A stretch of DNA of 64,000 bases, from contig CP121690.1 of assembly GCA_038396605.1 (NCBI GenBank), forward strand, positions 2,880,356-2,944,355. Reading direction: 5' to 3'. Position 1 is the stretch's first letter; each line of letters opens with the position of its first letter. This stretch comes from Eubacteriales bacterium mix99. GTDB lineage: Bacteria > Bacillota > Clostridia > Caldicoprobacterales > DTU083. The notes below the pieces were generated by a model. It did not search any database and was not told where the DNA came from. It saw only the letters and a program-made list of their open reading frames with translations. Positions 26,124-32,501 of this stretch are shown here, in pieces. A program made the position numbers and the translations under genes.

Positions 26124-27002
26124 TTACTGCTTTGGCAGAACACCTTCCTTTGATATAGTGACTTTGCCGCAAAAAACATTGCTGATGGTATTCAAAAGCT
26201 CTGTATTCTTGATCCGGTCACACTGATGAATAGTAATCTTTCTTGGCGCTATGGTAATCAGCGAACTGATCAGCAGATCATCGTGACTGATTTCCTTGTC
26301 GGAAATTTCCCTTGCCAAATCTTCCAGCATATCGTTGTTGATGACATGAAGACTGGAATCCAGCAATATATATTTTTTATCTTCTCCCAGCTGAACATGA
26401 ACTTCATCCACCTTAGGCTCCTGTATTTCCACAAAATATCGAAGCAACTTAATAAACTCCCTGTACTCTTTTTCGATCAGCAGGTCATCCACTGCCCGAT
26501 CCACTGCTTCCTCCAGCTCGCAGGTAAAATCCTTCATTCGAAACCGGATAAACCCTTCCAGCACCAGTTCATCATTGTCCTCCAGATGCTCCATGATACG
26601 TTTCCATACCCGGCTGCGCCATCTGCTTCGGATCACTTCGGAACGAACCGTGGGGTTTCCGCCCCACATAATCGCCATGGCATCCCGAAGTATCTTGTTG
26701 CGCTCCTCCTGCTCAAAATAAAAATATTCATCCCGGATAATCTTTTCCACCATCTCAGACTGCAAATCCTCCAAAATGATTTCAGATACGGTATCGGCAA
26801 CATATTGGTGCAGTTTATCCTGGACCGACTTTATGGTGACGCTGTCATAATCCTGGCAGCTGGTATAGTTAAGGAATAAAAGATCCCCTGCTTTTTTTTC
26901 TTCGATATCCAGTCCATCCGGCTTGCGGATCTGAGCTTTCCGGAACAACGCTTCCTTTCCGCTCATATCCCGTTCTTCCACCCCGATGGATAAAAGCTGC
27001 AT
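26124..27002 (-). CDS. ytxC: Putative sporulation protein YtxC
   Basis: This 292-residue soluble protein matches the YtxC family (known as a sporulation protein by mutant phenotype or neighbourhood, biochemistry unknown). Recognisable parts are LNYTSCQDYDSVTIKSVQDKL near 55, FEQEERNKIL near 105 and SSLITIAPRKITIHQCD near 265. It lies directly upstream of the thrS T-box, as in Bacillus and many Clostridia. The start is the ATG at 27002 with AGGGAG 7 bases upstream. No membrane segment is visible. Confidence 0.85.
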   Translation of the reverse strand: MQLLSIGVEERDMSGKEALFRKAQIRKPDGLDIEEKKAGDLLFLNYTSCQDYDSVTIKSVQDKLHQYVADTVSEIILEDLQSEMVEKIIRDEYFYFEQEERNKILRDAMAIMWGGNPTVRSEVIRSRWRSRVWKRIMEHLEDNDELVLEGFIRFRMKDFTCELEEAVDRAVDDLLIEKEYREFIKLLRYFVEIQEPKVDEVHVQLGEDKKYILLDSSLHVINNDMLEDLAREISDKEISHDDLLISSLITIAPRKITIHQCDRIKNTELLNTISNVFCGKVTISKEGVLPKQ

Positions 27003-27409
27003 TTTACCACTCCCTTCCATCCTCTTTCCATTCTTCCTCATTGTTGTTTTTTCCGGGGAAGAATGCTGTTATCATAGTACTCCGACCGATCCAGCCAAAC
27101 CGGATCGATATTGCTGTATTATGAAGGGTAAGGTATCCAATTCCTGTTTCATTATATGCCGTGCTGTTTGGATAGTTTCCCTCGGAGATAGTATTCCCAT
27201 GAGCATTTCAAAGTCATGATGTATTAATTGGTTGATCAGTGACTCGCTGACATGGAAAATGATGCAAACATGGAAGAGGATGCGAAACTTCGATTTTTCC
27301 TTTTTATTTTTTGCAGAACCAGGTGGTTCATTCTTCCCGACAATATTTTACGGTAAAAAGTGAAAAAATTTCGTTATGACAATATGAAAAAATTATCTCA
27401 TCCAAAAAC

Positions 27410-27443: not shown

Positions 27444-27533
27444 TGGTGCCGGAGACGGGGATCGAACCCGTATGGTTTTTGTGGAACCGCAGGATTTTAA
27501 GTCCTGTGCGTCTGCCTATTCCGCCACTCCGGC
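27444..27533 (-). tRNA. tRNA-Leu (anticodon UAA)
   Basis: A cloverleaf with long variable arm (class II). The anticodon stem CAGGA/TCCTG encloses CTTAAAA, giving anticodon TAA. Ends are GCCGGAG...CTCCGGC with discriminator A and encoded CCA. Last gene of the six-tRNA operon. Confidence 0.97.
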
Positions 27534-27595
27534 AATAAGCCTGTTCGTTCGTCAGATAAATAAAACCCGGATGAAACCCAGCACCCTATAAAAAA

Positions 27596-27669
27596 TGGAG
27601 GCGGCACCCAGATTCGAACTGGAGATAAAGGATTTGCAGTCCTCTGCCTTACCGCTTGGCTATGCCGCC
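27596..27669 (-). tRNA. tRNA-Cys (anticodon GCA)
   Basis: Acceptor GGCGGCA...TGCCGCC with CCA encoded. Anticodon stem GAGGA/TCCTT around CTGCAAA gives anticodon GCA. T-arm GTTCGAATC. Confidence 0.97.
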
Positions 27670-27674
27670 TTATC

Positions 27675-27749
27675 TGGAGCGGGAGACGGGATTCGAACCC
27701 GCGACATTCGCCATGGCAAGGCGATGCTCTACCACTGAGCCACTCCCGC
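27675..27749 (-). tRNA. tRNA-Gly (anticodon GCC)
   Basis: Acceptor GCGGGAG...CTCCCGC with CCA encoded. Anticodon stem TCGCC/GGCGA around TTGCCAT gives anticodon GCC. Only 5 bp separate it from the tRNA-Cys gene. Confidence 0.97.
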
Positions 27750-27831
27750 ATAAATTTTAAAACCAACTGCCAATATTGGATTTCCTTCTGTGACAACTTT
27801 CCCTGCCGGAAAGTGTCCCAATACTGACTTA

Positions 27832-27907
27832 TGGTGCCTCGGGGCGGAATTGAACCACCGACACATAGATTTTCAGTCTACTGCTCTACCGACTGAGCTA
27901 CCGAGGC
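27832..27907 (-). tRNA. tRNA-Phe (anticodon GAA)
   Basis: Acceptor GCCTCGG...CCGAGGC with A discriminator and encoded CCA. The anticodon loop CTGAAAA gives GAA. It is the likely ligand species of the pheST T-box. Confidence 0.97.
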
Positions 27908-27916
27908 AAAAACAAA

Positions 27917-27993
27917 TGGCGACCCGGGACGGATTTGAACCGACGACCTCCAGCGTGACAGGCTGGCATTCTAACCAACTGAACTACCGGGCC
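27917..27993 (-). tRNA. tRNA-Asp (anticodon GUC)
   Basis: Anticodon stem CCAGC/GCTGG around CTGTCAC gives GTC. Acceptor GGCCCGG pairs with CCGGGTC (one G-T). The CCA is encoded. Confidence 0.96.
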
Positions 27994-27995
27994 AA

Positions 27996-28071
27996 TGGTG
28001 GGAACAATAGGGCTCGAACCTATGACCCCCTGCTTGTAAGGCAGATGCTCTCCCAGCTGAGCTATGCTCCC
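27996..28071 (-). tRNA. tRNA-Val (anticodon UAC)
   Basis: Acceptor GGGAGCA...TGTTCCC with encoded CCA. Anticodon stem TCTGC/GCAGG around CTTACAA gives TAC. First gene of the operon, 30 bp after a strong promoter. Confidence 0.97.
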
Positions 28072-28101
28072 AAACGCCGCTCTGTTTCAGCAGCAAGTAA
28101 G

Positions 28102-28130
28102 ATTATAATATATCCGGGCGGAGAAGTCAA
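28102..28130 (-). promoter_or_regulatory. Strong sigma-A promoter of the tRNA operon
   Basis: Minus-strand -35 TTGACT (28125-28130), 17-bp spacer, perfect -10 TATAAT (28102-28107), just upstream of tRNA-Val. Confidence 0.85.
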
Positions 28131-28204
28131 CCACTTGTTGTCAAAATTTCGCAGAATAATTCTCTGTCAACCGGTATATACTTTTCTCCATTCTCCATTT
28201 CCAC

Positions 28205-29278
28205 TCACCGTTCCTCCACGTCCACCAGTATTTCCGCCAGACTGTGAAGAAAGTACCGGTTGTCCTCCATCCGGCCGATCGTCACCCGTAAACAATCCTT
28301 CAACATCGGATCCCCGGCAAACCGTCTTACCAAAATGCCCTTTTTCAGCAGGCGCTGATAAACCAAAGCACCGTTTTTCACCCTGAACAGGATGAAATTT
28401 GCCTTGGTGGGATAGGGATGAACCCCCCGGAGCCCATCCAACGCCTGAAAAAGCCACTCCCTGGCATCCCGGATCTCCCGTACCTGTTTCTCCCGGTCCT
28501 CCCTGCACTGCCATATGAGCTCCGCCGCCCGTTGCGAAAAGCAGTTGACGTTGAACACAGGCTTTATTTTTTGAATCCCATACGCCAGGTTTTTGTTGCA
28601 TGCCAGGTAACCGACCCGCAGCCCTGCAATCCCCATGGCATGGGAAAAGGTCCGCAAAACCACCAGATTGGGATATTGATCAATGAATGAAATCACAGAC
28701 TCTCCACAGAACTCATAATAAGCTTCATCCACCACCACAATCCCGTCAAAGCTCCGGGCCAGCTTCCGGATATCCGGAACCGGCATGATATTTCCGGTCG
28801 GATTATTGGGAGAGCCGATATAAATCACTTTCGGCTCATATTCCTCCATCGACTGCTCCATCTCTCCCAAATCATAGCAGAATTCCTTGCCCAGTGGATA
28901 TTCCGCCGCAATTCCTCCTGCAATCCGCGTACATTGGGAGTACACAGGGAAAGAAGGCGAAGGACACAATACCGCATCTCCCCAGTCCACAAAGGCATTG
29001 GTAACCATCCGGATCAACTCATCCGATCCGTTGCCAATCAGGATACTGTCCCGGCTGATCTTCAGATCCTCCGCCAGTTTCTCGCGCAGGGAATCTGCAT
29101 CCGGGTCGGGATATCGATGATAGTTGTTTTCTTCGAGCAGCTCAGAAGCCAGCTGCGCCCGTATTTCCAGAGGGATTGGAAAAGGGGTTTCATTGGCATC
29201 CATTTTCAGGGAAAACTCTCCCCTTACAGGACGATAAGGTTTCAACGATCGGAGGTCTTCACGCAGATATTCCTTCAT
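28205..29278 (-). CDS. HisC-like aminotransferase fold protein lacking the PLP lysine
   Basis: This 357-residue protein matches histidinol-phosphate aminotransferase throughout: KMDANETPFPIP near the start, GNGSDELIRM, the substrate loop GSPNNPTGN, and VVVDEAYYEF with the PLP-binding Asp and Tyr. However, the Schiff-base motif reads RTFSHAMGIAGLRVGYL. The lysine expected after Ser (normally FSKA) is histidine, encoded CAT. The rest of the site, including the Arg of GLRVGY, is intact. A normal transaminase needs that lysine, so activity is doubtful or changed. Start is ATG 29278 behind GAGAGGCGG; an upstream ATG at 29305 lacks a ribosome site. It is divergent from a PHP histidinol phosphatase gene. 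Confidence 0.88.
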   Translation of the reverse strand: MKEYLREDLRSLKPYRPVRGEFSLKMDANETPFPIPLEIRAQLASELLEENNYHRYPDPDADSLREKLAEDLKISRDSILIGNGSDELIRMVTNAFVDWGDAVLCPSPSFPVYSQCTRIAGGIAAEYPLGKEFCYDLGEMEQSMEEYEPKVIYIGSPNNPTGNIMPVPDIRKLARSFDGIVVVDEAYYEFCGESVISFIDQYPNLVVLRTFSHAMGIAGLRVGYLACNKNLAYGIQKIKPVFNVNCFSQRAAELIWQCREDREKQVREIRDAREWLFQALDGLRGVHPYPTKANFILFRVKNGALVYQRLLKKGILVRRFAGDPMLKDCLRVTIGRMEDNRYFLHSLAEILVDVEER

Positions 29279-29443
29279 TCTTCCGCCTCTCTTCCCATGA
29301 ACCATACTAAAGCAAAGAAAACAGAATTATGTCCTATCCTGTACTATTCTGCATAGATACGGCTGTTTCCTCCCAACCCCATGAAATATGTTTTGCCAGT
29401 TGACTTACCCACGCGGGACTACTACAATACGGTTTGGGATCGT

Positions 29444-29471
29444 TGAAACAATGTGCCCGAAAATATATACA
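29444..29471 (+). promoter_or_regulatory. Sigma-A promoter of the PHP phosphatase gene
   Basis: -35 TTGAAA (29444-29449) and -10 TATACA (29466-29471) with a 16-bp spacer, about 18 bp before the TTG start of the gene. Confidence 0.5.
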
Positions 29472-29489
29472 GAATGAAGGGGACTCGTA

Positions 29490-30290
29490 TTGCTCGATTA
29501 TCATATGCATACTTTCTTTTCTCCGGACGGGAAAATGACCATGGAAGAGGCATGTAAAAAGGCAATGTCCGTAGGACTGAAAGAAATTGCCTTTACAGAT
29601 CATATGGACATGAACCTGCCGGAGAACAAAAACGCCTTTCAAATCACGGATATGGATCAATATATTCAATCCATTGCATCCGTCCGGGAAAAATACAAGG
29701 GAAAGCTCTCCGTAAAAACCGGCATAGAAATCGGTCTTCAGGACCGGACTCTGGAAGCCGCCGCATCTCTTGTCAGAAGCTATCCCTTTGACTTTGTCAT
29801 AGCCTCGCTCCACCTGGTGGACGGGCTGGACCCCTACCGCCCGGAATACTATAAAGGACGGGACAAGTTAAAAAGTTATACCGTCTATTATCAGAAAATT
29901 TACGATCTTCTTCGCCAATATGACGATTACTGTGTCCTGGGACATCTGGACTATGTGAGACGTTATATGCCCTATCCCTATGCCCCGGAAGATTATAAAA
30001 TCGGAATGGAAATCATAGAATCCATTTTAAAACTGCTGGTGGAAAGGGGCAAGGGCCTGGAATTGAATACAGCAGGCTGCAAACACAGCTCCAGGCAGCC
30101 TCATCCACATCCTGCCATTTTAAAACGATACCGGGATCTGGGCGGAGAAATTGTCACCATCGGATCCGATGCCCATGCCGTGAATGATGTGGGATATGAA
30201 AACAGGAGAGCACTGGAATGGTTGAAACAGGCCGGATTTGACTATGTAACCTTCTTTACAGACAGGCAGCCAGAGTTTGTAAAAATATAA
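29490..30290 (+). CDS. hisJ: Histidinol-phosphatase, PHP family
   Basis: This 266-residue metal-dependent phosphoesterase probably performs the last dephosphorylation in histidine synthesis. All PHP metal motifs are present: DYHMHTFFS near the start, FTDHMD near 35, the Glu in GIEIG, ASLHLVDG near 106, GHLDYVRRY and GSDAHAVNDVG near 229. The start is TTG at 29490 with AAGGGG upstream. It faces away from the HisC-like gene, sharing the 211-bp region between them. A long bidirectional hairpin terminator separates it from the convergent transketolase gene. Confidence 0.9.
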   Translation: MLDYHMHTFFSPDGKMTMEEACKKAMSVGLKEIAFTDHMDMNLPENKNAFQITDMDQYIQSIASVREKYKGKLSVKTGIEIGLQDRTLEAAASLVRSYPFDFVIASLHLVDGLDPYRPEYYKGRDKLKSYTVYYQKIYDLLRQYDDYCVLGHLDYVRRYMPYPYAPEDYKIGMEIIESILKLLVERGKGLELNTAGCKHSSRQPHPHPAILKRYRDLGGEIVTIGSDAHAVNDVGYENRRALEWLKQAGFDYVTFFTDRQPEFVKI

Positions 30291-30515: not shown

Positions 30516-32501
30516 TCAAAGGACTGTTTCCCTCGCCTTTTTGACAATGTTCTCCACTGTAAAGCCGAATTCTTCAAACAGGATGTTATATTTGCCGGAT
30601 GCGCCGAAGTGATCCATGGAAATAACATCTCCGTCCAACCCGGTATATTTCTGCCAGCCAAAGGAAGTGCCTGCTTCCACAGCAAGTCTGGCCCGTACCT
30701 TTTTCGGCAGTACACTTTCCCTATAGTCTTCCGTCTGCTCTTCAAATATTTCCCAGGAAGGCATGCTGACGACCCGGGCATCGACTCCCTGCTCTTTCAG
30801 AACCTTCTGTGCCTGTACAATCAGCTGTACTTCGGAACCGGAAGCCATCAGAATCATATCCGGTATTTCCTTTTCAGAATCCTTCAGGATATAGGCACCC
30901 TTCAGTGCACCCCTGCCCGTACCATCCAGCAGAGGCAGGTTCTGACGGGTCAACGCCAAAGCGGTGGGACCGTCGGTTCGGGACAATGCGGACACATAAG
31001 CTGCTGCAGTTTCCCTGGAATCTGCGGGCCGGATCACCGTAAAGTTCGGAATGCTGCGCAGGGAAGCCAGCTGCTCAATGGGCTCATGGGTGGGCCCGTC
31101 CTCTCCCACACCGATGCTGTCATGAGTCAGAACATAAAGCACCGGCAGCTTCATCATGGCAGACAGCCGCATGGCGCCTTTCATGTAATCACTGAATACA
31201 AAGAAAGTGGCAACATAGACGGTTAACCCGCCGTGAGCAGTCATGCCGTTGGCAATGGCTGCCATCGCATGCTCCCGAACGCCAAAATGCAGATTGGAAC
31301 CTGCATAATCCCGTGCGGAAAAGTTTCCCATATTTTTTATTTCCGTCTTGTTGGAAGGAGCAAGATCTGCGGACCCGCCAATCAGATTGGGAACCTTTTT
31401 GATCAGGCGATTGAGTATCTCTCCGGAGGCAGAACGGGTAGCCATATCTCCCTCAAAATGCCAAAACTCCTTGTCATCCAACAAATCTTCCTTTTGGCAG
31501 GGCTGATGCCAGGCTTCCCAGTCGGCGGCCAGATCCGGATAATGTTCCTGATAGGGATCCCATAGCTTGTTCCAATCCTCTTCTGCCTTTTGCCCCTGAG
31601 AGACAAGTTCCTTCATATGCTCCCTTATCTCATCCGGTACATAGAAGGATTTATCCGGATAATAATGCAGAAATTCCTTGGCAGCCTGGACGTTCTCCGC
31701 ACCGAGGGGTGCGCCGTGAGCAGCGGCAGTACCCTGCTTTGCAGGCGCTCCGTATCCAATCACGGTACGTACGATAATCATGCTGGGCTTTTCCGTCTCC
31801 TGTCTGGCTTCCTTCAATGCTGCTTCAATGGCATCCGTATCGTTGCCGTCCTCCACCCGCAGCACCTGCCATCCGTATGCTTCATAACGTTTGCCCACAT
31901 CTTCCGTAAAAGCGATATCCGTACTTCCTTCAATGCTGATGGAATTGGAATCATACAGAAGAATCAGTTTTCCAAGCTTCAGCGTGCCGGCCAGTGAAGA
32001 GGCTTCTCCAGAAATGCCCTCCATCAGGCAGCCATCCCCGCATAAAGCATAGGTATAATGGTTTACGATCTCATATCCGGGCCGGTTGAACTTTGCTGCC
32101 AAATGGGCTTCCGCCATTGCCATGCCCACTGCATTGGCAATTCCTTGTCCCAGTGGGCCCGTGGTCACCTCCACTCCGGCTGTGTGGCCGTATTCCGGAT
32201 GTCCGGGAGTCCTGCTGCCCCATTGCCGGAAATTCTTCAGATCCTCCATTGTCAGACCGTATCCAAATAAATGAAGGAGGGAATAAAGCATCATGGATCC
32301 GTGCCCTGCGGAAAGAACAAACCGATCCCGGTCTGCCCACGATGGATCCCTGGGATTATGTTTCAAAACCTTTGCCCAAAGGGTATAAGCCATGGGAGCC
32401 GATCCCATCGGCAGTCCCGGATGGCCGGATTTTGCCTTTTCCACTGCTTCTGCCGATAAAATACGTATGGAATTGATGCATAGCTGGTCAATCTTGTTCA
32501 T
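30516..32501 (-). CDS. tkt: Transketolase
   Basis: The 661-residue thiamine-diphosphate enzyme moves two-carbon units in the pentose phosphate pathway. It has the TPP motif [20 protein letters not shown] near 153, the pyrimidine domain ([14 protein letters not shown] near 410; [16 protein letters not shown] near 465) and a C-terminal domain. The start is ATG 32501 with AGGAGG 8 bases upstream. It lies near arabinose genes whose product, xylulose 5-phosphate, it consumes, but it has its own promoter and terminator. Confidence 0.97.

Follow-up and report, generated by a model that had tools for sequence, protein, structure and literature searches.

A HisC-derived protein with histidine at the Schiff-base lysine position in a clostridial genus without the histidine pathway

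The orphan hisC-derived gene and its codon 213

The window analysed here is a stretch of 64,000 nucleotides from Eubacteriales bacterium mix99 (contig CP121690.1), whose genome consists of one contig (3.13 Mb, completeness 97.78). It contains an orphan hisC-derived gene lying between a tRNA cluster and a divergent gene for a PHP-family phosphatase, with the following features in and around it.

27444..28071, minus strand: tRNA cluster Val-Asp-Phe-Gly-Cys-Leu; here tRNA-Val follows hisC alone
28205..29278, minus strand: orphan hisC-derived gene (P0001), ATG at 29278, full length, 357 aa
28640..28642, minus strand: codon 213, CAT (His), the Schiff-base lysine position by alignment with E. coli Lys214
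29279..29489, no strand assigned: intergenic region from hisC to the divergent PHP gene, covered by tblastn and by comparison of three alleles
29490..30290, plus strand: PHP gene, HisJ histidinol-phosphatase family (TIGR01856, 192 bits, cut-off 90.2)
30516..32501, minus strand: transketolase gene, next beyond PHP (TIGR00232, 945 bits; neighbourhood in relatives)

The product of 28205–29278 scores 327 bits against TIGR01141, above the curated cut-off of 276.55, and its best NCBIfam match is HisC while its best Pfam match is Aminotran_1_2. The predicted structure is a confident HisC fold (mean pLDDT 93.2, pTM 0.92) and, when the protein was used as query in a fold comparison with the PDB, ranks 1–17 were all HisC structures, with TM values to the query of 0.84–0.91 among the first 20 rows. 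PLP enzymes are usually defined by their Schiff-base lysine, which in HisC belongs to a TFSKA motif. This lysine is missing from the present protein, in which the relevant stretch reads ...VVLRTFSHAMGIAGLRVGY... and His213, within the motif TFSHAMGIAGLRVGY, aligns with Lys214 of E. coli HisC (1fg3), which we take to be the PLP lysine. An initial annotation made from the letters of the window alone had described a HisC homologue with histidine in place of the PLP lysine, and both the TIGR01141 score and the alignment with E. coli Lys214 confirm this. It had also argued that CAT is at least two changes from either lysine codon and that a read error was unlikely; the codon is indeed two changes from AAA or AAG, and as the same CAT is found in the genome of the window and again in the two alleles of another assembly (G001), where it lies on two contigs, a sequencing error at codon 213 is excluded.

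The only RNA elements between 27000 and 31000 that reach Rfam cut-offs are the six tRNAs. A promoter scan of 28060–29560 gave three promoter-like sites, against 1.8 in shuffles, of which one lies before the tRNA cluster and one points at PHP; none was found ahead of hisC in this interval, where the bases adjoining the hisC start (in 29279..29489) are identical in the three alleles. A near-consensus promoter, TTGACT-17-TATAAT, at 28102–28130 on the minus strand, between the end of hisC and tRNA-Val, is probably that of the tRNA cluster.

Distribution of the histidine form and loss of the his operon

The genus was sampled through two genomes, the window's own and G001, and three gene copies, G001 carrying the hisC-derived gene on two contigs with the same neighbourhood, which we interpret as allelic versions from mixed strains. 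His is encoded by an identical codon in each of the three copies so that, on the question raised by the initial annotation of whether His is fixed in a clade, His213 is the fixed state in the two genomes of this genus. In one of the two G001 versions of the locus (contigs C23/C66, L173/L174) PHP differs from that of the window at 2 of 226 residues and hisC at 20 of 357, a mismatch in divergence that suggests recombination or mixed strains.

The genome-contig search, in which 80 loci were kept of 135 encoding a relative, contains only two loci with His, L013 and L014 (95% and 93% identical), and outside the genus Lys was present in 78 of 78 loci as read in the best segment. At the level of the order 30 genomes were searched and 28 had a match; the resulting alignment (27 loci outside the genus and five further loci from the genome-contig search, with some second copies falling outside it) has Lys in all 32 rows. 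At the level of the class (393 genomes, 254 with HisC at E up to 1e-75) Lys was found in 130/130 of the HisC genes read among the best 150 matches, which were ranked by family score and in which low-scoring odd HisCs are under-represented. The 20 left unread among these 150 include the three His copies, genes of the order (most of them in the order alignment) and four more from the class, and the three Lys sets (78, 32 and 130) overlap in part. Second HisC-like copies in G018, G019 and G025 of the order each have one TAG inside the listed match; for that of G018 there is a slightly shorter match without the TAG, which may therefore be the terminal stop.

A search for a second hisC, also proposed at the outset, found no other gene over the HisC cut-off in the window's single-contig genome, which speaks against a second copy doing the real work. 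In the two genomes of the genus hisG and hisD gave no match (nine of the 11 remaining family genomes have each of them) and nothing over the cut-off was found for hisA/hisF, with one scrap below it in G000 and none in G001; full hisA/hisF matches occur in the same nine family genomes and scraps of 33 positions in G008 and G009. These last two genomes, which belong to genus g7, have no gene over the HisC cut-off. As the histidine pathway is gone from the His-bearing genus, the protein is not a HisC that makes histidine by odd chemistry. Descent and model score make it a HisC, but it is without two of the features that define one, the lysine and the pathway, and since both are missing its annotation as a histidinol-phosphate aminotransferase is unwarranted. 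Because it passes the TIGR01141 cut-off, automated annotation may list for the organism one step of a pathway that is absent.

Comparison with relatives indicates what the locus once held. In seven of the nine pathway-bearing family genomes the his operon, hisZ-G-D-C-B-A-F-IE, has the divergent PHP gene at its head and is complete or nearly so (some genes are hidden by longer ORFs or contig ends); in G010 and G012 the operon is on a different contig from PHP. The operon of the relatives lies between PHP and tRNA-Val, and in the window hisC stands alone between these same flanks. tRNA-Val comes directly after hisIE in the five scanned stretches that reach past hisIE, and in G004 and G007 the tRNA cluster has the order Val-Asp-Phe-Gly-Cys-Leu, as in the window. 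On the other side, the transketolase gene is the next gene past PHP in G002, G003, G007 and G010; in G004 a few ORFs separate it from PHP, in G006 and G011 some 18 to 23 kb do, and in G005 and G012 it is on a separate contig (the G012 transketolase match, L193, is listed with one in-frame TAA). When fourteen his proteins of two relatives were used as tblastn queries against the window, no remnant of a his gene was matched near hisC and none anywhere in the window better than E=0.02.

A second operon loss is seen in genus g7, where both genomes (G008, L216; G009, L217; compared with 28072–29489 of the window) have PHP followed directly by the same six tRNA genes, the his operon being missing together with hisC. 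The transketolase tree groups g7 with G010, in which the operon is present (support 100/98), and the PHP tree agrees. A loss shared between g7 and the His-bearing genus is thus unsupported and, since g7 groups with G010 and apart from that genus, the two operon losses look independent on these trees.

The PHP gene itself scores under the cut-offs of the narrower HisJ models. It is kept in 13/13 family genomes, including the two without hisC, which weakens both the hint in the initial annotation that the divergent phosphatase belongs with hisC and the idea of PHP as the partner of an altered HisC. As PHP is kept with or without hisC, its position beside the gene reflects old gene order and is no evidence of joint function; it appears to be a neighbour by ancestry rather than a demonstrated partner. 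The presence of a HisJ-family PHP protein without a histidine pathway in g7 suggests that PHP has another role.

Constraint on the protein and changes in its pocket

Selection was assessed from the three pairs of His copies, for which NG86 gave dN/dS values of 0.147, 0.165 and 0.142 and YN00 gave higher values (0.20–0.26); the synonymous excess is significant in all three pairs (Fisher p 1e-14, 1.4e-11 and 8e-17). These ratios are a little above those of five pairs of Lys-type HisC (0.118, 0.141, 0.135, 0.052 and 0.066, the last two with dS above 1) and about twice those of three neighbouring genes in the same genomes (0.065–0.085; between the window and G001, thrS 0.085, the gene at 26124–27041 0.065 and tkt 0.08). 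PHP, at 0.09–0.17 between the window and G001, is similar to hisC. Within the genus 35 of the 357 sites vary, and this variation avoids the positions conserved in Lys-type HisCs: none of the 44 that are invariant in 28 such proteins is affected (4.3 expected, P=0.0078), nor more than one of 76 at the 90% conservation level (7.5 expected, P=0.0017) and 6 of 129 at the 75% level (12.6 expected, P=0.009), the 50% level showing no significant deficit (18/222 vs 21.8 expected, P=0.12). The three alleles are 6–7% apart in protein sequence and full length, with a single, terminal stop, and where a pseudogene would be under relaxed or absent selection all three are intact with dN/dS of 0.14–0.17. The constraint on the His form is therefore strong, near that on a normal HisC and weaker than that on thrS, the 26124–27041 gene and tkt. 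His213 and the missing operon are common to the three copies, so the most parsimonious reading is that the constraint has acted since both events.

The residues of the pocket that are changed or kept lie at the following codons (position 213 is given above).

28943..28945, minus strand: codon 112, Val; Met in 28/28 Lys-type rows
28814..28816, minus strand: codon 155, Gly, directly before the SPNNPTG cofactor loop; Cys in 28/28 Lys-type rows
28727..28729, minus strand: codon 184, Asp, kept; invariant in the 22-row alignment and in the Lys-type comparison rows
28553..28558, minus strand: codons 241–242, Val-Phe; P241 in 28/28 and Y242 in 27/28 Lys-type rows
28511..28513, minus strand: codon 256, Trp; Leu in 28/28 Lys-type rows

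The His lineage breaks five of the 44 invariants of the 28 Lys-type rows (M112V, C155G, K213H, P241V and L256W), whereas the other lineages tested, singly or grouped, break 0–2 of 39–43. The His lineage is a long branch in the transketolase tree and this may explain part of the broken invariants. HisC identity between the genus and its relatives is 57–62% (52–53% to G010), against 61–79% among eight relatives compared with one another, but transketolase identities are also lower, at 74–77% from the genus to relatives and 83–89% for four relatives. Faster evolution of hisC in the His lineage is thus not seen, and the long branch belongs to the lineage as a whole and not to hisC in particular.

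The statement in the initial annotation that all other PLP contacts look intact is borne out by the residues that could be mapped, Y56, G84, S85, N159, D184, Y187, S212, R221 and R331 all being kept. Beside the site three positions are changed (C155G, P241V and Y242F). Among the kept residues are those which we take to be the PLP and substrate contacts expected of a HisC apart from the lysine (Y56, N159, D184, Y187, S212, R221 and R331), Asp184 presumably being the contact to the pyridine nitrogen. The strand PVFNVN, to which positions 241–242 belong, is assumed by analogy with aspartate aminotransferase to be the active-site strand contributed across the dimer interface by the neighbouring subunit. 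Position 318 reads R, K, R.

Candidate roles and comparison with known systems

Sequence comparison establishes a HisC ancestry, the loss of the lysine and of the pathway, selection at the protein level and the retention of the mapped cofactor contacts, a combination which suggests that an ordinary enzyme has taken on another task. The initial annotation had put forward a pseudoenzyme, a carrier of PLP, a regulator or an enzyme of altered chemistry, and all of these are still live. The explanation we place first, while giving it somewhat less than an even chance, is that HisC was kept and repurposed after loss of the pathway as a lysine-less PLP/PMP protein with His213 as acid-base and a substrate other than histidinol phosphate. 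The genus would have lost the rest of histidine biosynthesis, with hisC alone retained and put to a new use; the protein would still fold like HisC and would bind PLP or PMP without a covalent bond or Schiff base; His213 would act as the acid-base in proton transfer, as in ColD, E1, SpnQ and the engineered K258H enzyme discussed below; and the outcome would be a half-reaction or PMP-dependent chemistry on the new substrate, positions 155 and 241–242 beside the site having changed along with it. No conserved operon around 28205–29278 points to what this substrate might be.

Only slightly less likely than a repurposed enzyme is a protein that binds a ligand without catalysis. It would then be a true pseudoenzyme whose ligand is PLP, PMP, a phosphorylated metabolite or an amino acid and which performs no chemistry, serving as a sensor, a regulator or a partner subunit. 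As this would predict, the residue that forms the aldimine is lost while selection maintains the fold and the ligand contacts; a protein that binds PLP or another ligand without catalysis would likewise be expected to retain its cofactor residues, and the gene has no operon partner of the kind that biosynthetic steps often have. Residues of the type of Asp184 and Tyr187, however, serve chemistry as well as binding in PLP enzymes, and both are kept; moreover the protein is without an added regulatory domain, and the residue that replaces the lysine is His, which has natural precedent as a working substitute (PMC8987622).

The other explanations are a good deal less probable. An ordinary aminotransferase, acting for example on aromatic amino acids, that tolerates His213 and is slow but sufficient seems to us unlikely: a paper title credits an aspartate aminotransferase engineered to K258H with catalytic activity, and PMC6522883 lists B. 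subtilis HisC under aromatic amino acid biosynthesis, but had ordinary transamination been the selected function, it is not evident why a change that slows it should become fixed, and five further class I/II aminotransferases scoring above 140 bits are encoded in the genome, with Lys present in the four that were read (L001, L003, L005 and L006, L002 being the fifth). That the gene is a dead remnant whose erosion is still to come would fit with its standing alone, without the catalytic residue, where the operon was lost, and genus g7 of the same family did lose the operon together with hisC; such a decaying relic is nevertheless very unlikely, given three full-length alleles 6–7% apart, their dN/dS and the unchanged state of the 44 conserved positions. 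Scarcely any weight can be given to the last alternative, a normal PLP enzyme in which another lysine forms the aldimine. For pseudoenzymes in general PMC10211241 mentions the migration of catalytic residues, but the sole lysine that is present in all three copies and absent from nine family HisCs is Lys172, which lies in helix 167–176 of the model and, in sequence, away from the known PLP contacts.

Whether a repurposed enzyme or a pseudoenzyme, the His form can be compared with close relatives that keep the full operon or have lost the operon and hisC at the same locus, a natural experiment on the release of an enzyme for another function or its conversion into a pseudoenzyme. With HisC proper (TIGR01141, EC 2.6.1.9) the protein shares its sequence family, length and fold, the locus of the his-operon HisC of relatives and all mapped PLP contacts but one; it differs in having neither the PLP lysine nor a histidine pathway around it and, beside the site, in the changes of Pro-Tyr to Val-Phe and of Cys to Gly. 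A fold type I PLP protein without the lysine is also found in serine palmitoyltransferase, where SPTLC1/LCB1 is a non-catalytic partner. That subunit works with a catalytic paralogue, whereas the window's genome is without a second gene over the HisC cut-off.

To our knowledge, natural replacements of this lysine by His are confined to a small group of sugar dehydratases. In the literature examined, outside which most subscription journals lie, a HisC lacking this lysine is nowhere reported. It is possible, though less likely than not, that through a single fixed catalytic substitution and the loss of its pathway a biosynthetic enzyme has here given rise to a natural PLP/PMP enzyme of a new kind, lysine-less and outside the sugar-dehydratase family, in which His takes over the work of the Schiff-base lysine. 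In ColD, E1 and SpnQ, according to PMC8987622, His occurs naturally in place of the aminotransferase Lys and acts as the catalytic acid-base, and E1 and SpnQ carry iron-sulfur clusters. The present protein resembles these PMP-dependent 3-dehydratases, as described in that source, in having His at the aminotransferase lysine position; the nucleotide-sugar substrates, on the other hand, are theirs. None of the three was among its 21 PDB sequence matches or best 50 fold matches, and by sequence it is neither a member of their family nor a close relative, although, if it is an enzyme, it may by analogy work as the ColD group does. The same substitution at the equivalent lysine is that of aspartate aminotransferase K258H, to which the title of a 1995 paper cited in PMC8405696 ascribes catalytic activity; that protein is a laboratory mutant of a different enzyme, whereas in the present genus the histidine is a natural, fixed state.
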